A stretch of 35,580 bases of DNA from Planctomycetota bacterium (GTDB taxonomy: Bacteria > Planctomycetota > UBA1135 > GCA-002748355), in assembly GCA_024278315.1 (NCBI GenBank), contig JAJRTL010000285.1, positions 1 to 35,580 of the forward strand, given 5' to 3'. A program made the translations under genes and the position numbers. Shown one piece after another: positions 2,654-13,460 of the stretch (the stretch's first letter is position 1; each line of letters opens with the position of its first letter). The notes under the pieces are model-generated. The model was given only the letters and a program-made list of their open reading frames with translations, searched no databases and was not told where the DNA came from.

Positions 2654-5344
2654 TCAGCGAGACAGACGACGCATGGGGCGGAGCCCCATGCTGCCGCTCT
2701 TGCTGTTGGGCACCGTGCCTGCGCGATAGGCGGAGCGGGCCTGCTCGAAGGACTGGTCGTACGAGCCGCCGCGCGCAACGCGCTTGTGGGAGTCCACGGG
2801 CTCGCGTAGACCATCGCCCTCTCGCGTAGCAACCGTATAGGATCCGTACCAATCGCGACAGAGCTCGAGGACGTTGCCGTGCATGTGGTGCAGGCCGAAT
2901 GCGTTGGGGGTGAGGAGATCGACCTTGCAGTGCAGGGTGAAGCCGTCGTCGAGCTCGGGCCAGGCCTGTATCTGGCTCCAGCCGGCACCACGCCGCCTGG
3001 CCTCTTGATCAGCAAAGTTGACGCTGCCACGTAGCAAGTCGCGATCGGGACCCGTGGACCAAGGATCACTGCTCCCAGCGCGGCATGCATACTCCCACTG
3101 AGCCTCGGTCGGAAGGTCGAGACCAAACTGCCGCAGGAGTCGGTGACAGTCGTTCCAGCTCACCTCCTCGACCGGGTGGGCGAGCGTAATGCGTTGGCGT
3201 GCCACCTTCTTGCCGGCAGGAAACGCGCTGGGGTTCTCCCCCATGGAGAGCCGCTTCCACTGTCCCTGGGTCATCTCGTACTTGGACAAGAACAAGGGAT
3301 CCAGGGGGATCTCGGCGAGTGGCCGTTCGGGCTTGCGCGCCAACCGGTCGTAATTGTGCCCTCCTGGCTCCTTGTCCTGGGCCCCCATCCAGAACCTACC
3401 ACCCGGTAGAAGGACGAAAACTAGACAGGTCTCCTCATCGATCAAGAGCTTGCCGGTCGAGGGATCCCGCTCGGGAATCGTGCCAGAGCGCAGATGCCCG
3501 AACTCCTGGAGATGGGACCGTCGGTCGGTCCCGAGTGGCACGAGACCGGTCTGTGCCTGGAGTTCGAGCCCCTGATAGAGGTCGCTGGCAGCCACTTCGC
3601 GGATAGCCCGGGACCAAAGGTCTTCGTGCGCAGCGACCGTGACCGCCTCCACCTGCTGGATCCAGGCCAGATGTCCGCGAACCCTGGCGAGCGCACCCTT
3701 GCGATCATCCAGAAACGCTGAAACCTCCGAAACGAGCTGACTGAGGCTGTCGTAACGGAACTGCAGGGCCTCGTCTACGAATCGACGTCGGCCGTCCGAA
3801 TCGGTCACCGCGCGGGATGCCAGATCTCCGACCGTGGCCTTCAACATAGGCAGGCTCTTCTCGATCGGCTCCCCGTGTTCACGCATCCAGGCATCAAACA
3901 GGGCGAGGCGCCCAGGCGTCGCCGGGTAGAGCTCCTGCTCGCTCTCGACCGCCCGCTCCAGCTTGACGACCCAGGACAGACGATCGTACTCCGCGCGTGC
4001 ACGCTGGGATTCGAGCAGCAAGAACGAGATCAGCAGCCAGGCGAAGCTGACAGCGACGAGGAAGCTCGCGACCAGTGGATTGCGCTGAACCCAGCGGCGA
4101 CCACGCAGGAGCAGACCTGCGCGACGCGCACGGATGGGCTCCCGGCGCAGGACGCGCCCGAGATCGTCCGCCAGGTCCGCTGCGGTCCTGTAGCGATCCT
4201 CGCGCTTTTTCTCCATCGCCTTCTCGACCACAACGGCGAGGTCGCCTGGGATCTGTCGATTCAGTCGCGTCAGGGACGTTGGCTGCGTCTCCAGCACCGC
4301 ATCCTGAATCTCGCGCACCGAGCTGCCCTCGAAGGCACGCTCGAGCCCCAGGCACTCGTAGAGGCTCACGGCCAAGGACCAGATGTCGGTCGCGGCATCG
4401 AGTCTTCGCCCCTTGGGGTTGACTTGCTCAGGAGACATTAACATCGGCGTCCCAGGCTGATCCCCTGTCATCGTGAGGCCCGCCTGCTCCGAGTCTTCAT
4501 CGTAGGCCAGACCGAAGTCGAGGATGACCGGCTCCCCCTGCTCCGTGACCATGAGGTTGGCGGGCTTGATGTCGCGGTGCACGATGCCCTGGTCATGCGC
4601 CGCCTGGAGGGCGCGCGCCAGCTTCTCGAAGAGGGTCACCCATGTATCGATCCGCTTGCGCCCGGCACCCCAGGTGCTGCCCGAGCCGCTCGTCTCGGTT
4701 CCGGTAAACGACCCGGTCAGAGCCTCCCGTGCCTCCTCGGCCTCCTGGATGAGGTCGGCCACGGTCCGTCCCTCGATGTAACGCATGGCCATGAAGGGCT
4801 GCCCCTCGACCTCGCCCACTTCATAGACGGGACAGATTGCGGGGTGATCCAGCCGAGCCACAGCCTTGGCCTCACGCCAGAAGCGCTGCCTCGCCACGGC
4901 TGACCAGAGCCTCTCCCCCCGGATCACCTTGAGCGCCACGCGGCGTCCCAGCTTCCTGTGCGTCGCCAGATAGACTGTTCCCATACCGCCCTGCCCAAGC
5001 ACGCTCTCGATGCGATAGGGCCCGAACTCCGAAGAGTCCCCTGAACGGTCCTGCCCCGAGGAGCCGAGGGCCTCGGCCCCCTCCGGGCTTCGTTCCTGGG
5101 TCACCGCCTCCCCGGTTCCGCCCAGCGCCTCGGTCGACGATCCGACGAGAGGGGGATCCAGCTCCACATCGAGCATGCCGACCAGGATCTCCCGGAGGTC
5201 CTCGTGCTGGGCCAGAAAAGCCTCGGGATCCTCCCCCTCGAGACTCCCAGGTCGCCCCCTCCCCGAACGCCCCCTCCAGGCCTCGACGAGCCCCATGGCC
5301 CGCACATAGTCGTCGATCCTGTCCTCTGGAGGCCCTGAGCTCAT
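2654..5344 (-). CDS. Membrane Ser/Thr protein kinase fused to an FGE/sulfatase-modifying-like domain
   Basis: An 896-residue Hanks-type kinase. Residues 107-400 hold the kinase domain: glycine loop LGQGGMGTVYL at 116-126, ATP-binding Lys139, catalytic HRD at 256-258 with DIKPAN, DFG at 276-278, and SPEQ in the P+1 loop. A low-complexity insert rich in Gly/Ser/Thr lies at about 207-230. A single membrane segment at about 422-445 puts the rest outside the cytoplasm. From about 640 the protein is an FGE-sulfatase (SUMF1/EgtB-type) domain, with GGRFWMGAQ, PVEEVSWNDC, LPTEAQWEYACRAG, HGNVLELCRDW and a GGSY close. The last 40 residues contain no cysteine, so the paired cysteines of a true formylglycine-generating enzyme appear absent; a sensing or binding role is likelier than catalysis. 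The start is the ATG at 5344 behind a GAGGG that is unusually close. Confidence 0.92.
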   Translation of the reverse strand: MSSGPPEDRIDDYVRAMGLVEAWRGRSGRGRPGSLEGEDPEAFLAQHEDLREILVGMLDVELDPPLVGSSTEALGGTGEAVTQERSPEGAEALGSSGQDRSGDSSEFGPYRIESVLGQGGMGTVYLATHRKLGRRVALKVIRGERLWSAVARQRFWREAKAVARLDHPAICPVYEVGEVEGQPFMAMRYIEGRTVADLIQEAEEAREALTGSFTGTETSGSGSTWGAGRKRIDTWVTLFEKLARALQAAHDQGIVHRDIKPANLMVTEQGEPVILDFGLAYDEDSEQAGLTMTGDQPGTPMLMSPEQVNPKGRRLDAATDIWSLAVSLYECLGLERAFEGSSVREIQDAVLETQPTSLTRLNRQIPGDLAVVVEKAMEKKREDRYRTAADLADDLGRVLRREPIRARRAGLLLRGRRWVQRNPLVASFLVAVSFAWLLISFLLLESQRARAEYDRLSWVVKLERAVESEQELYPATPGRLALFDAWMREHGEPIEKSLPMLKATVGDLASRAVTDSDGRRRFVDEALQFRYDSLSQLVSEVSAFLDDRKGALARVRGHLAWIQQVEAVTVAAHEDLWSRAIREVAASDLYQGLELQAQTGLVPLGTDRRSHLQEFGHLRSGTIPERDPSTGKLLIDEETCLVFVLLPGGRFWMGAQDKEPGGHNYDRLARKPERPLAEIPLDPLFLSKYEMTQGQWKRLSMGENPSAFPAGKKVARQRITLAHPVEEVSWNDCHRLLRQFGLDLPTEAQWEYACRAGSSDPWSTGPDRDLLRGSVNFADQEARRRGAGWSQIQAWPELDDGFTLHCKVDLLTPNAFGLHHMHGNVLELCRDWYGSYTVATREGDGLREPVDSHKRVARGGSYDQSFEQARSAYRAGTVPNSKSGSMGLRPMRRLSR

Positions 5345-8960: not shown

Positions 8961-9348
8961 GGCGAATAGGGGGGTGGCGGGATAGCGCGAACCTCGGCTG
9001 GAGGACCAAGGGGGAGGAATTCTAACGCCTCAGGCCTGGCTTTGCTCCCATCCGAGTCGAGCGCGGAGGGGAAAAGTCCCCTCACCCGGGCCTCCCTCCC
9101 TCAGCCCGGACGATTCATGACCGCGATGCAACGATCTCATGAATCGTCCGGGCCAGGAGCCGCCAGGCCCCGTGCCATGGCAGGATGCGCCGGAGCATCT
9201 TCGCTCTCCCGGGCCTGATACTCCTTGCAGCCACCCGCACAAGGGGTCCAATATCTGGGAAGGGGCGGACGCGCTCCTGCCTACCTGTCCCCTCCAGACC
9301 CTCCTCGAACCGCTTCCAGCCCCGCCTTCCCTACGAACCTACCGCCAA
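8961..9348. other. 388-bp divergent intergenic region
   Basis: Lies between the DUF1573 gene (-) and the kynureninase gene (+). It holds the compact hairpin copy of the dispersed repeat (9104-9153). A GTTAGAAT on the minus strand near 9020-9027 is a possible -10 for the DUF1573 gene but no matching -35 is obvious. From 9154 to 9348 the frame of the downstream gene is open, but its content (Pro-rich, no enzyme-like residues) argues against translation. Nothing else is recognised. Confidence 0.4.
9104..9153. repeat. Dispersed GCCCG-ACGATTC element, copy A (minimal hairpin)
   Basis: A perfect 17-bp inverted repeat (9104-9120 with 9137-9153) around a 16-base loop. The arms match the terminal sequences of the longer copies at 13461, 19201, 19425 and 34471, and the loop keeps CGATGCAACGATC, which joins the left-end and right-end subterminal sequences of those copies. 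It therefore looks like an internally deleted version of the same element. CA flanks it directly on both sides. Confidence 0.85.
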
Positions 9349-10560
9349 ATGAACGAGCCTTCCCCCCACGAACGCAGCCTCGAGGACTGGAGGAGCGAGT
9401 TCCCCATCCTCAGCACAAGTACCTATCTGATCTCCAACAGTCTCGGAGCCATGCCCCGCAAGACCAAGGAGAGCCTCGGCGAGTACACGCGGATCTGGGA
9501 GGAGATGGGAGTTCAGGCCTGGGCAGAGGGCTGGTGGGTCAAGCAGAACGAACTCACAACCCTGCTCGGACCGATCCTCGGCGTGCAAGCCGATGCCATC
9601 TCCCTGCACCAGAACGTGGCGGTCGCCTCAGCAGTGTTCAGTTCTGCTGTCGACTTTTCCAAGCCACGCAACAAGATCGTCTACACGGACATGAACTTCC
9701 CTTCGCTCATGTACCTCTACAACGGACTCGCTGCCCAACGGGGAGCCGAAATCCAAGTGGTGGAGAGCGAAGACGGCATCGGTGTCCCCACGGAGAAGCT
9801 CCTGGCTGCAATCGATGACCGAACGGCCCTGGTCCCCATCAGCCACGTCCTCTTCCGCTCGGCCTTCATCCAGGACGCCAAGGCCATCATCGCGCGCGCC
9901 CATGAAGTGGGAGCCATGGTCCTGCTGGATTGCTTCCAATCCGTCGGCACGGTCCCGCTCGACCTCGAAGCCTGGGGTTGTCACGCAGCGACCGGAGGAG
10001 CTCTCAAGTTACTGTGCGGCGGACCGGGCGCCTGCTTCCTCTACGTCAATCCGGACCTTGGCAAAGATCTGACTCCGGCGTTCACGGGATGGATGGCCCA
10101 CAAGAGCCCATTCGACTTCGATCCCGGCCCACAGGACCTGCGCGAGGATGGCTGGCGCTTCCTCCATGGGACGCCCAACGTGCCCGGGATCTACGCGGCC
10201 ATCGAGGGGGTGCGCATCATCCACGATGTTGGCATGGCTCGGATCCGCGAGCACTCCATGCATCAAACGGCCCTCCTCGTGGAACGGGCTCAGGCCATGG
10301 GCTTCGAGGTCAGCGCCCCGCTGGACCCTTCGGTTCGTGGCGGAACAGTGGCCGTGAACGTTCCTCATGGCTACGAAGTCTGTCAGGAGTTGCTCGAACG
10401 CAAGTTCATCGTCGACTATCGTCCGAGAGCAGGTATCCGGATTGCACCGCACTTCTATACTCGGGACGAAGAGTGTCGCGCAGCCCTCGATGAGATCCAG
10501 GCGATTCTAAAGACCGGGGCTCACGAAAAGCACAAGAACAAGCCACACAAACCGGGTTGA
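9349..10560 (+). CDS. kynU: Kynureninase-like PLP-dependent enzyme (aminotransferase class V fold)
   Basis: A 403-residue fold-type I PLP enzyme. Kynureninase cleaves L-kynurenine to anthranilate and L-alanine. The N-terminus has the family's substrate region (YLISNSLGAMP, residues 26-36). Asp194 in LLDCFQSVGTVPLDL should hold the PLP pyridine nitrogen, and Lys220 in GGALKLLCGGPGACFLYV is in the place of the Schiff-base lysine. WRFLHGTPNVPGIYAA fits the cofactor phosphate and dimer contact region. Kynureninase is preferred over a cysteine desulfurase because of CGGPG after the lysine and because the next gene, 18 bp on, is a KynB-type formamidase. ATG 9349 is used although its ribosome site is poor; the upstream open frame is not enzyme-like. 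Confidence 0.82.
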   Translation: MNEPSPHERSLEDWRSEFPILSTSTYLISNSLGAMPRKTKESLGEYTRIWEEMGVQAWAEGWWVKQNELTTLLGPILGVQADAISLHQNVAVASAVFSSAVDFSKPRNKIVYTDMNFPSLMYLYNGLAAQRGAEIQVVESEDGIGVPTEKLLAAIDDRTALVPISHVLFRSAFIQDAKAIIARAHEVGAMVLLDCFQSVGTVPLDLEAWGCHAATGGALKLLCGGPGACFLYVNPDLGKDLTPAFTGWMAHKSPFDFDPGPQDLREDGWRFLHGTPNVPGIYAAIEGVRIIHDVGMARIREHSMHQTALLVERAQAMGFEVSAPLDPSVRGGTVAVNVPHGYEVCQELLERKFIVDYRPRAGIRIAPHFYTRDEECRAALDEIQAILKTGAHEKHKNKPHKPG

Positions 10561-10578
10561 CCCCCGACAGGAGCGCGC

Positions 10579-11139
10579 ATGCCCCATCGTCACATCTATG
10601 ACATCTCGGAGCCCCTCTCGGAGGAGATCGCGCACTGGCCAGGCGACTCCAGCTTCTCGCGCGAATGGGTGATGCGACTCGACAAGGGAGACGCCTGCAA
10701 CGTATCGACGATCCGGATGTCGACGCACTGCGGCACGCATGTCGACTCGCCGTTCCACTTCTTGCAACAAGGCACAACAACCGAACGGACACCGCTCACA
10801 CCCTATCTGGGTCGATGCCTCGTCCTCAACGTCAAAGGCAAGGGTGAACCACTCGTGGTTCCGCCTGAGGCCCTGGAGGCACTCCCCAGTGTCGAGCGGA
10901 TCCTCCTGAAAACTCGCGATCAGCACGATCCGGGGACCTTCGACGAGTCTTTTTGCTCACTAGGGCCACAGGCTGCAAAGGCCTGCGTCGAGATGGGCCT
11001 CAAGCTCATCGGCATGGACACACCCTCGATGGACACCTGCCATTCCAAGGAGTTGCCGTCGCATCACATCCTCCTGCACGGAGGAGTGGTGCTTCTCGAG
11101 AATCTCGATCTCAGTGATGTCCCTGAGGGTTTCTACTAG
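10579..11139 (+). CDS. kynB: KynB-type arylformamidase (cyclase family)
   Basis: A 186-residue metal-dependent hydrolase of the cyclase (PF04199) family, close to the usual KynB length of about 200-210. Residues 50-60 carry the signature H-x-G-T-H-x-D-x-P-x-H (His50, His54, Asp56, His60), which binds the Zn or other divalent metal. The enzyme would hydrolyse N-formyl-L-kynurenine to L-kynurenine, supplying the enzyme encoded just upstream. IGMDTPSMD and HHILLHGGVVLLENL near the end are also family-typical. AGGAG lies 5 bases before the ATG. The pair forms a two-gene operon; the tryptophan dioxygenase that would start the pathway is not in the window. Confidence 0.88.
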   Translation: MPHRHIYDISEPLSEEIAHWPGDSSFSREWVMRLDKGDACNVSTIRMSTHCGTHVDSPFHFLQQGTTTERTPLTPYLGRCLVLNVKGKGEPLVVPPEALEALPSVERILLKTRDQHDPGTFDESFCSLGPQAAKACVEMGLKLIGMDTPSMDTCHSKELPSHHILLHGGVVLLENLDLSDVPEGFY

Positions 11140-11261: not shown

Positions 11262-13418
11262 CTACCGGGGGATGAGTCGCGCGTAGTCGAGATAGCGATC
11301 CCGGATTGCCTTGACGTAGCCATACACCTCGGTTCCTCGGCAGTACCCATAGCGGGCCTGCCTGGCAATCGCTTTGTTCTCCAGCAACAGGATGCACTTC
11401 TCCACGTTGTCGAACCAACGCTCGGGATCCAAACCGCGTGCACGAGCCAACCGCATGGCATCCAACACATGCCCTCGCCCACCGTTGTAGGAAGCGAGGC
11501 CGAAGTAGATGCGCTCCTCGAGCGGGATGTGTTCATCGAAGCGATCTACCATCTTGGCGAGGTAGCGCACACCCGCATGCATCCCTGTGTCGGGGCCTTC
11601 GAGATCCGTGAAACCCATCTCCTTGCCGGTCGCAGGCATGACCTGCATCAAGCCCTGCGCGCCGACCCAACTCCGGGCTTTGGGATCGAACCGACTCTCT
11701 TGCCAGCACTGTGCCGCAATCAGTCGCCAATCCAGGCCGTAGCGCTCCGCATACTTCTTGAACAGAGCGTCATAGGTCGAGATACGCCCCTCGATGAGCT
11801 GACTCCTGTGCAAGTCCTTCTTATGATGCCGTCGATCGAAGTAGCGGCGTCTCGCGAGGTTGTATCGGGTGCCACGATAGGTCTTCTTGACGAAAGCATC
11901 GAGAGCCGCGAGCAGCTGAGGGTTGTCGGGGCGACAGGCGAACGCAATGGACTTGGCCTTGGTTCTCGGCTTGCCGATGCTGTCGAGCGCCCCTCGGGGT
12001 GCTTGCGTCAGACGTAGTGCCGGCACGACATCGCTGCGATACGCCAACTCCACGCCCAGCACGTGATCATCGGCGACCGTCAATCCGATCTTTCCGAGAC
12101 CGACCTGAGCGATCAGGGATTCGGTCTCCTGGCTCTCGGCTGCATCCATGACCTGGAGCCCCCCCATTCGATTCGACAACGCCGCGAGCGTGCTCGCGTA
12201 GCTGGAGCTCCTGCGCACGTGGATCGGATACTTGCGCAGATCCTCCAGGGTCTGGATCTTGGGGCTCCCTCGGCGCGCCACAACAATCTCATCGACGTAG
12301 AGATAGGGCAGGGAGAAGGCCACCTGCCTTTTCCGTTCCTGAGTGATCGTCATGGATGCAGCCACGAGATCCCCTCGCCCCTCTCGCAGCCAGGCGAGAA
12401 GGTCCTCACCGCTCTTGGGCACGAGGATCTCAAACCGGACACCCAGATCCTTGGCTAGCATCCTGACCAGCTCGAAATCGAATCCAACAGGCGACCCTCG
12501 ATGCAAGAAGTAGGAGACAGAGTTGTTGCGCATCAGCACACGCAGGACTCCACGCTTCTTGATCTCAGTGAGATCTCCCGTCGACCGTAAATCTCGATCG
12601 CTGTCAATCGCATGCTCGACGATGAAGGCATTCACCGCCGCAAGCAGGTCGGGGTTCTGCTTCCGGATGGCCCAACCGATCTGCCGACCTTTCTTGAGCG
12701 TGCAGAGCTCGACGAGACTTCGATCCACTACCTGAACCGCATGCAGGATGTCCTTGTCGACGACCGTCAAGGGAATACGGTTGTTGTTCACCAGATAGAG
12801 AAGGGTCTCATCATCCAGATCGGGACGAGTGGCGTGGATCTCCAATCCTGGCGCCCGAGTCAGAGCCAGATCCTGCAGGGTCTCCGCGTAGCTGGATCGC
12901 CCCCAAACGTAGACTTCGCGTCCAGCCAGCTGCTCGGGCGTATGCGGAAGCCCGGAGGCGCCCTGTCTGCCGACGAGGACCTCATCGACGACCCGCGTCG
13001 GCCGAGAGAATTCGAGCCTCTCTAGTCGACTCTTGGTGATCGTCAGATTCCCGGCGGCGAGGTCCGCTTGACCGTTCTCCACCAGATCGAAGAGCTCATC
13101 TCGCGTCTCCGTGGCAAGCAGCTGCACTTCGAGCCCCAGCGAACGAGCGAACTTCTGCGCCAGGATCCGGTCTGCCGAGGCCGGACGTTGGGTTACGGCA
13201 ACAGGTGCCGGCACACGCGGGAGCACTGCGATGCGCAGCACACCGCGCTCGCGGATCCTGCCCAGATCGCCCTTGTCCACGCGGCGCGGCAGCTTGCGTA
13301 CCACGGGAGCCCTTACCGAGACTCTCTTGTCAGCAGCCCTTTCGACCGCCTGGACACCCCGGTCATGACAGGCAAGAAGACCTGAAAAGACCAGACCAAC
13401 GACGATGCCACTCTTCAT
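11262..13418 (-). CDS. Lipoprotein lytic transglycosylase with two solute-binding domains (MltF-like)
   Basis: A 718-residue exported protein. The ATG at 13418 follows GGGAGGT at good spacing and opens a lipoprotein signal whose lipobox ends LLAC with Cys17. Two family-3 solute-binding domains follow, at about 52-272 and 283-520; each begins with a near-identical motif (IRERGVLRIAVL and IKKRGVLRVLMR) and each has the TIT block (NLTITKSRLERLEFS, SMTITQERKRQVAFS). From about 545 there is an SLT lysozyme-like domain with the catalytic Glu in CWQESRFDP (about 574), AQGLMQVMPATG and ASYNGG. Standard MltF has one binding domain, so this one has an extra copy. It should cleave peptidoglycan non-hydrolytically to 1,6-anhydro ends from the periplasm, perhaps tuned by bound muropeptide or amino acid. 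Confidence 0.9.
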   Translation of the reverse strand: MKSGIVVGLVFSGLLACHDRGVQAVERAADKRVSVRAPVVRKLPRRVDKGDLGRIRERGVLRIAVLPRVPAPVAVTQRPASADRILAQKFARSLGLEVQLLATETRDELFDLVENGQADLAAGNLTITKSRLERLEFSRPTRVVDEVLVGRQGASGLPHTPEQLAGREVYVWGRSSYAETLQDLALTRAPGLEIHATRPDLDDETLLYLVNNNRIPLTVVDKDILHAVQVVDRSLVELCTLKKGRQIGWAIRKQNPDLLAAVNAFIVEHAIDSDRDLRSTGDLTEIKKRGVLRVLMRNNSVSYFLHRGSPVGFDFELVRMLAKDLGVRFEILVPKSGEDLLAWLREGRGDLVAASMTITQERKRQVAFSLPYLYVDEIVVARRGSPKIQTLEDLRKYPIHVRRSSSYASTLAALSNRMGGLQVMDAAESQETESLIAQVGLGKIGLTVADDHVLGVELAYRSDVVPALRLTQAPRGALDSIGKPRTKAKSIAFACRPDNPQLLAALDAFVKKTYRGTRYNLARRRYFDRRHHKKDLHRSQLIEGRISTYDALFKKYAERYGLDWRLIAAQCWQESRFDPKARSWVGAQGLMQVMPATGKEMGFTDLEGPDTGMHAGVRYLAKMVDRFDEHIPLEERIYFGLASYNGGRGHVLDAMRLARARGLDPERWFDNVEKCILLLENKAIARQARYGYCRGTEVYGYVKAIRDRYLDYARLIPR

Positions 13419-13460
13419 GTTCCCACCTCCCAAGACCTGACCGGACCAGGAGCACATCCT

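Follow-up and report, generated by a model that had tools for sequence, protein, structure and literature searches.

Wall-cutting enzymes of the MltF type (membrane-bound lytic murein transglycosylase F), as found in Pseudomonas aeruginosa and Escherichia coli, consist of one family-3 solute-binding (SBP-3) regulatory domain followed by a C-terminal SLT transglycosylase domain. The window analyzed here, a 35,580-nucleotide stretch of DNA from a member of the Planctomycetota, encodes a relative with the same order of domains but with a second, divergent regulatory domain placed ahead of the first. This arrangement raises the question of whether the additional domain is a genuine binding domain, where it came from, and whether it is likely to sense a ligand of its own.

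A probable lytic transglycosylase with tandem regulatory domains

The gene occupies positions 11262..13418 on the reverse strand, as do all of its features described below, and its translated reading frame, which carries Pfam matches, encodes a tandem-sensor lytic transglycosylase of 718 amino acids (coordinates include the stop codon). The frame, strand and start proposed in an earlier sequence-only reading of this DNA were borne out, with an ATG at 13418 and, 6 nt ahead of it, a ribosome-binding-site-like GGAGGT that can be read from the sequence (13425..13430). The product is a putative lipoprotein: under the lipobox rule, a putative signal peptide read by eye (13368..13418), which ends in LLAC (residues 14-17), would provide a lipoprotein anchor at Cys17.

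Across the whole protein, Pfam recognized SBP_bac_3 in two stretches (E 3.3e-39) and SLT once (E 3.3e-22). The first SBP_bac_3 domain, hereafter D1, spans residues 50-271 (12606..13271; Pfam, AlphaFold2 and Foldseek). The second, D2, spans residues 281-527 (11838..12578; Pfam and PDB sequence match) and is an MltF-like sensor adjoining the enzyme domain, which covers residues 552-660 (11439..11765; Pfam). When the domains were excised and compared individually with SBP_bac_3 (PF00497), both passed the cut-off of 26.4 bits, D1 with 54.1 and D2 with 85.1; the D1 match begins at profile position 28, beyond the stretch in which the entry motifs differ. These matches, together with the predicted fold of D1, uphold the earlier proposal that two SBP-3 domains are arranged in tandem before the SLT domain.

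The best PDB sequence match was P. aeruginosa MltF (4owd, E 7e-51), in which query residues 282-711 align with residues 10-426 of the 435-residue chain and the QES motifs coincide. The predicted catalytic acid is Glu574 of this motif (11697..11699), which pairs in the alignment with the QES glutamate of the P. aeruginosa enzyme; the same residue is found at the aligned position of L031, a relative from a Lentisphaerae metagenome-assembled genome (MAG). The catalytic glutamate of MltF is given as E316 in the available portion of PMC10746161, and this residue would correspond to the glutamate of QES. Against the NCBIfam MltF equivalog NF008112 (cut-off 354 bits), the whole protein scored 414.9 bits because both regulatory domains were counted, whereas D2 plus SLT alone scored 317; as an MltF proper, the protein is a borderline case.

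D1 is predicted to adopt a complete solute-binding fold

The fold of D1 was predicted in isolation with AlphaFold2, using an input of four rows (query D1 and D2, and both domains of the Lentisphaerae relative L031). The model is a complete solute-binding fold (pLDDT 87.6, pTM 0.80), in which the sole stretch of at least three residues with pLDDT below 50 is D1 residues 20-23, inside the entry loop. Foldseek aligned this model with 1,736 PDB chains at E ≤0.001. The top matches were the arginine-binding protein of T. maritima (ArgBP) and an MltF fragment (5uh0); among the first 50 were P. aeruginosa MltF entries whose titles name muropeptide, tetrapeptide, Val, Ile, Leu or Cys. The whole two-lobe fold that is predicted and recognized in this way speaks against the view that the protein holds only one real SBP fold. 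A full-length AlphaFold2 model built from two sequences had a pLDDT of 39.5 and was set aside.

By sequence, too, D1 is closest to the regulatory domain of MltF, which was the best match of the D1 profile (E 2.5e-32, 218/220 positions), and the MltF model was the only NCBIfam match of D1 at E ≤1e-10 (101 bits). D1 is thus derived from MltF rather than from a transport protein that was fused on. The D1 profile also matched, in two stretches each, two other kinds of protein with tandem SBP-3 domains. In BvgS-type sensor kinases (4q0c) the tandem Venus-flytrap folds have a kinase and not a cell-wall enzyme as their output, so that the likeness is one of layout only. In GlnPQ-type ABC transporters (6h30) the tandem domains feed a transporter, and the two substrate-binding domains of GlnPQ differ in specificity.

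Entry motif and ligand residues of the two domains

Query D1 and D2 share 32% identity in the alignment. The GFDFELVRML segment of D2 (its GFDFEL motif is formed by residues 312-317, 12468..12485) lies opposite SADRILAQKF in D1, ungapped at that place; gaps occur elsewhere, chiefly at an insert in D2. In alignment and model, an entry loop at residues 66-85 of D1 (13164..13223) takes the place of the aromatic/GFDFEL entry of D2. D1 had previously been said to lack a GFDFELVRML-type segment. The difference in motif is real, in that Gly28-Phe29, the Gly-Phe pair of GF[DE]xEL, is present in 20/20 D2s and 0/20 D1s; the segment is nevertheless substituted rather than missing, and D1 retains the helix, built from different residues.

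To compare ligand residues we used the numbering of the lysine/arginine/ornithine-binding protein LAO, transferred through E. coli ArgT, which carries the LAO residue at all 16 sites checked from the available portion of the table in PMC5740067. In LAO, according to the available portions of PMC4192606 and PMC5740067, Arg77 binds the ligand carboxyl, Ser72 and Asp161 bind the amino group, and Tyr14 and Asp11 contact the side chain. The sites that match Ser72, Arg77 and Asp161 are T, R and D in both query domains, and both have Tyr at LAO site 122; the two domains are unlike at side-chain sites 11, 14, 17 and 52. Pocket residues of the query include Arg131 and Asp221 in D1 and Arg362 and Asp450 in D2. 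Extending the comparison to 20 D1 rows and 20 D2 rows, Arg77 was found in 17/20 D1s versus 20/20 D2s, Asp161 in 15/20 versus 18/20, the two together in 12/20 versus 18/20, and Ser or Thr at site 72 in 10/20 versus 18/20. Asn at LAO site 70 showed the reverse trend (16/20 D1s, 6/20 D2s). An [LVI]P[RK] sequence in the entry loop occurred in 12/20 D1s, the query included, in 0/20 D2s and in 1/15 single-sensor domains. LPR had been considered as a strict signature of D1 and was dropped on account of this frequency and because the copy in the query lies about six residues off the aligned place.

We also asked how strongly these sites are conserved among 10 D1 rows. The eight backbone-site columns had a mean pairwise identity of 0.508, versus 0.274 for all columns, and 46 of 10,000 random sets of columns were as high, a figure that serves as a guide and not as a test, since the sets of eight and of four columns were chosen after the residues were known and random draws assume that columns are independent of one another. 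Under the same caveat, the four side-chain-site columns averaged 0.151 (8,899/10,000 random sets as high), and all 15 pocket columns, at 0.362, were less striking (614/10,000). The same eight columns gave 357/10,000 in 11 D2s and 56/10,000 in 11 single-sensor domains.

Judged from these alignments, the pattern of D1 is one in which the presumed backbone grip is largely kept and the side-chain entry is changed. The sequence-only reading had suggested that the two domains might bind different ligands or that one might be structural. The differing entry motifs make different ligands plausible, and the retained Thr72, Arg77 and Asp161 speak to some degree against a purely structural D1. The backbone sites do not by themselves decide binding, because P. 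aeruginosa MltF, which is reportedly switched by muropeptides, has Asp at the Arg77 column of our alignment.

Phylogeny of the D1 domain

In a tree of 61 rows, the 20 D1s fell on one side of a single branch (support 95/91) and grouped together in 93% of the 200 bootstrap trees. Within this starred clade, query D1 joined the D1 of another genome of the same phylum, G197 (94/71), although query D1 was flagged as a long row and its placement is therefore unsure. A single D1 group was also recovered in a tree of 36 rows (93/94), where it was not starred, and in the 36-row set a constraint that pairs query D1 with query D2 carries a penalty of 8.4 log units and is not rejected (p-AU 0.128). Recent duplication was considered as the origin of D1 and set aside on the position of query D1 in the starred clade, with the uncertainty of a long row and the p-AU value just given. 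Since the 20 D1s form one clade, D1 is likely to be an old domain and not a recent copy; the description of the two domains as duplicated holds for an old event and does not hold for a recent one.

The D2s, in contrast, did not form a clade in the 61-row tree: the single-sensor enzymes L045-L048 nest among them, and the D2 of L053 falls outside. The nesting of these four enzymes suggests that D1 was lost in them, and D1 for this reason seems dispensable. The position of the L053 domain may be a long-branch effect. In 14/19 proteins that have both domains, the end branch of D1 is longer than that of D2. The long D1 branches, together with the long-row flag on query D1, are compatible with relaxed constraint and with an unsure placement.

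Distribution of tandem-sensor enzymes

The tandem is rare in the phylum of the window and recurrent in the class of its Lentisphaerae relative. A sample of the window's phylum yielded matches in 7/392 genomes, with one intact tandem (the window's own) and one that is frame-broken. In the latter (G197, L041:1573-3163), two overlapping frames encode D1 and D2, and SLT is matched separately further on, as expected of a frame-broken tandem gene or of sequencing errors. Within the window's class, 8/154 genomes matched at E ≤1e-20; only the window's own carries the tandem, the other seven being single-sensor. None of the 7 other genomes of the window's family matched at E ≤0.001.

The Lentisphaerae relative was the only one among 40 pattern matches in a scan of named genomes with the query alone, a search that reaches close relatives only. 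In a sample of its phylum, 19/288 genomes matched, with 7 intact tandems, one tandem with a stop codon and one cut by a contig end. In its class, 27/197 genomes matched, 13 of them with intact tandems; of the rest, 3 had a tandem that was cut or interrupted by a stop codon, 2 were doubtful, 3 were single-sensor (one partly visible) and 6 were limited to the SLT part. These phylum and class samples overlap, and the counts cover two phyla rather than a full survey. Two of the 13 genomes of this class with intact tandems hold two tandem-sensor enzymes each (L142 and L156 in G831, L144 and L157 in G837). Two relatives of 534 amino acids, L149 (G889) and L151 (G888), have only pieces of D1 and D2 that are recognized, possibly as shortened sensors.

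Scans of viral contigs with query D2, or with the alignments of D1 and of D2, yielded no relative; the full alignment matched 70 viral loci, all within query residues 507-709 (SLT and the stretch before it). Among plasmids, 903 records matched, and no tandem was found among the best 40 of these. Among the plasmid matches listed, 23 with at least 80% query coverage span 1.2-1.3 kb each, corresponding to a single-sensor enzyme matched twice. A partial literature search, which is weak evidence, found no published description of a tandem-sensor lytic transglycosylase.

Genomic context

To place the gene in its genome, which is 84.8% complete, we examined what else the genome encodes. One SLT domain was found, and it is that of the tandem-sensor enzyme; two of three SBP_bac_3 stretches also belong to this enzyme. 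Four transpeptidase-domain matches indicate that peptidoglycan cross-linking machinery is present. On another contig (C75, L002:302-2467, reverse strand), a 721-aa ORF combines a sodium:dicarboxylate symporter domain (PF00375, E 4.1e-45) with a C-terminal SBP_bac_3 domain (E 2.1e-16), and would by its domains be a transporter carrying its own binding domain.

Domain searches of the window identified an aminotransferase-V protein with a kynureninase C-terminal domain (9139-10560, forward strand) and a cyclase-family protein (10579-11139, forward strand). This pair (9139-11139) is convergent to the enzyme gene and looks like a kynurenine breakdown pair. A subtilase lies upstream of the enzyme gene. 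None of these neighbors gives a pointer to the role of the enzyme. Elsewhere in the window (2654-5344, reverse strand), an 896-aa ORF joins a protein kinase domain to an FGE-sulfatase domain.

The sparse distribution in the window's own lineage could mean that the gene reached this assembly through misbinning, as a contaminant, or that it was imported recently and has no settled role in this organism, given that no match was found in the 7 other genomes of the family (E ≤0.001) and no tandem in the other 153 genomes of the class (E ≤1e-20). We consider this quite unlikely. The ligA gene, which shares the contig, has its nearest relatives in genomes of the same family, which contribute 5 of its 6 best non-self rows (61, 59, 59 and 56%; 5/7 same-family genomes match), so that the contig looks resident and not an obvious contaminant, and the enzyme holds the only SLT domain found in the genome. 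The sparse distribution may reflect horizontal acquisition or repeated loss.

A possible two-input variant of MltF

The domain content, the fold of D1, its single clade, its kept backbone residues and its replaced entry motif were each computed here. On balance, we lean toward the reading that these belong to a two-input MltF-type enzyme, in which D2 would act as the usual sensor, and D1 would be a second, retuned sensor with a different ligand that tunes D2-SLT. The lipid anchor would tether the enzyme to the membrane, where the SLT domain would cleave the glycan strands of peptidoglycan. In P. aeruginosa MltF, muropeptides at the N-terminal domain open the active site, as described in the available portion of PMC10746161; by analogy D2, directly before SLT, may open the active site on binding muropeptides (or amino acids). 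D1, situated between the lipid anchor and D2, would keep an amino-acid-backbone grip in the query with a rebuilt side-chain entry; it may bind a small molecule other than that of D2 and so modulate D2-SLT. Catalysis, the ligand classes, the allosteric coupling and the two-input logic are what we infer within this reading.

The main competing account is that D1 no longer senses a ligand and instead serves as a spacer, extends the reach of the enzyme or makes a protein-protein contact, with regulation through D2 alone. This is possible, and we give it a lesser but real chance. It would explain why Gly28-Phe29 is gone in all 20 D1s, why Asp161 or Arg77 is missing from some of them, why the end branch of D1 exceeds that of D2 in 14 of 19 proteins, and why four genomes, with single-sensor enzymes that nest among the D2s, have apparently lost D1. 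It sits less well with the three backbone sites that are intact in query D1, with residues typical of D1 that are kept, such as Asn70 (16/20 versus 6/20), and with eight backbone-site columns conserved above random (46/10,000, in a grouping chosen once the residues were known). Alternatively, D1 and D2 might bind the same kind of ligand, D1 then being a redundant element for dose or cooperativity. The shared T, R and D at LAO sites 72, 77 and 161 and the shared Tyr at 122 would fit such an arrangement, but the Gly28-Phe29 split between all D2s and no D1s, and the differences of the query domains at side-chain sites 11, 14, 17 and 52, make it improbable. We hold the two-input reading at moderate strength. 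The fold, the backbone residues and the sustained conservation agree with it; the faster change, the residue loss in some D1s and the loss of D1 in one group would fit a spacer or a redundant part.

More broadly, and more tentatively, these proteins may represent an old branch of MltF, found in the samples of two phyla, those of the window and of the Lentisphaerae relative. In this branch the regulatory domain would have been duplicated and one copy turned into a separate sensor of amino acids or cell-wall peptides, giving combinatorial control of autolysis in one chain. Enzymes that cut the wall need restraint, and an allosteric sensor in MltF is already described in the available portion of PMC10746161. 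A natural form with two diverged sensors, its extra domain forming one clade over two phylum samples, offers a clean test of how sensors tune wall cutting. As this is the only SLT-domain enzyme found in the draft genome (84.8% complete), how it is regulated may be of greater consequence than the regulation of one transglycosylase among many.
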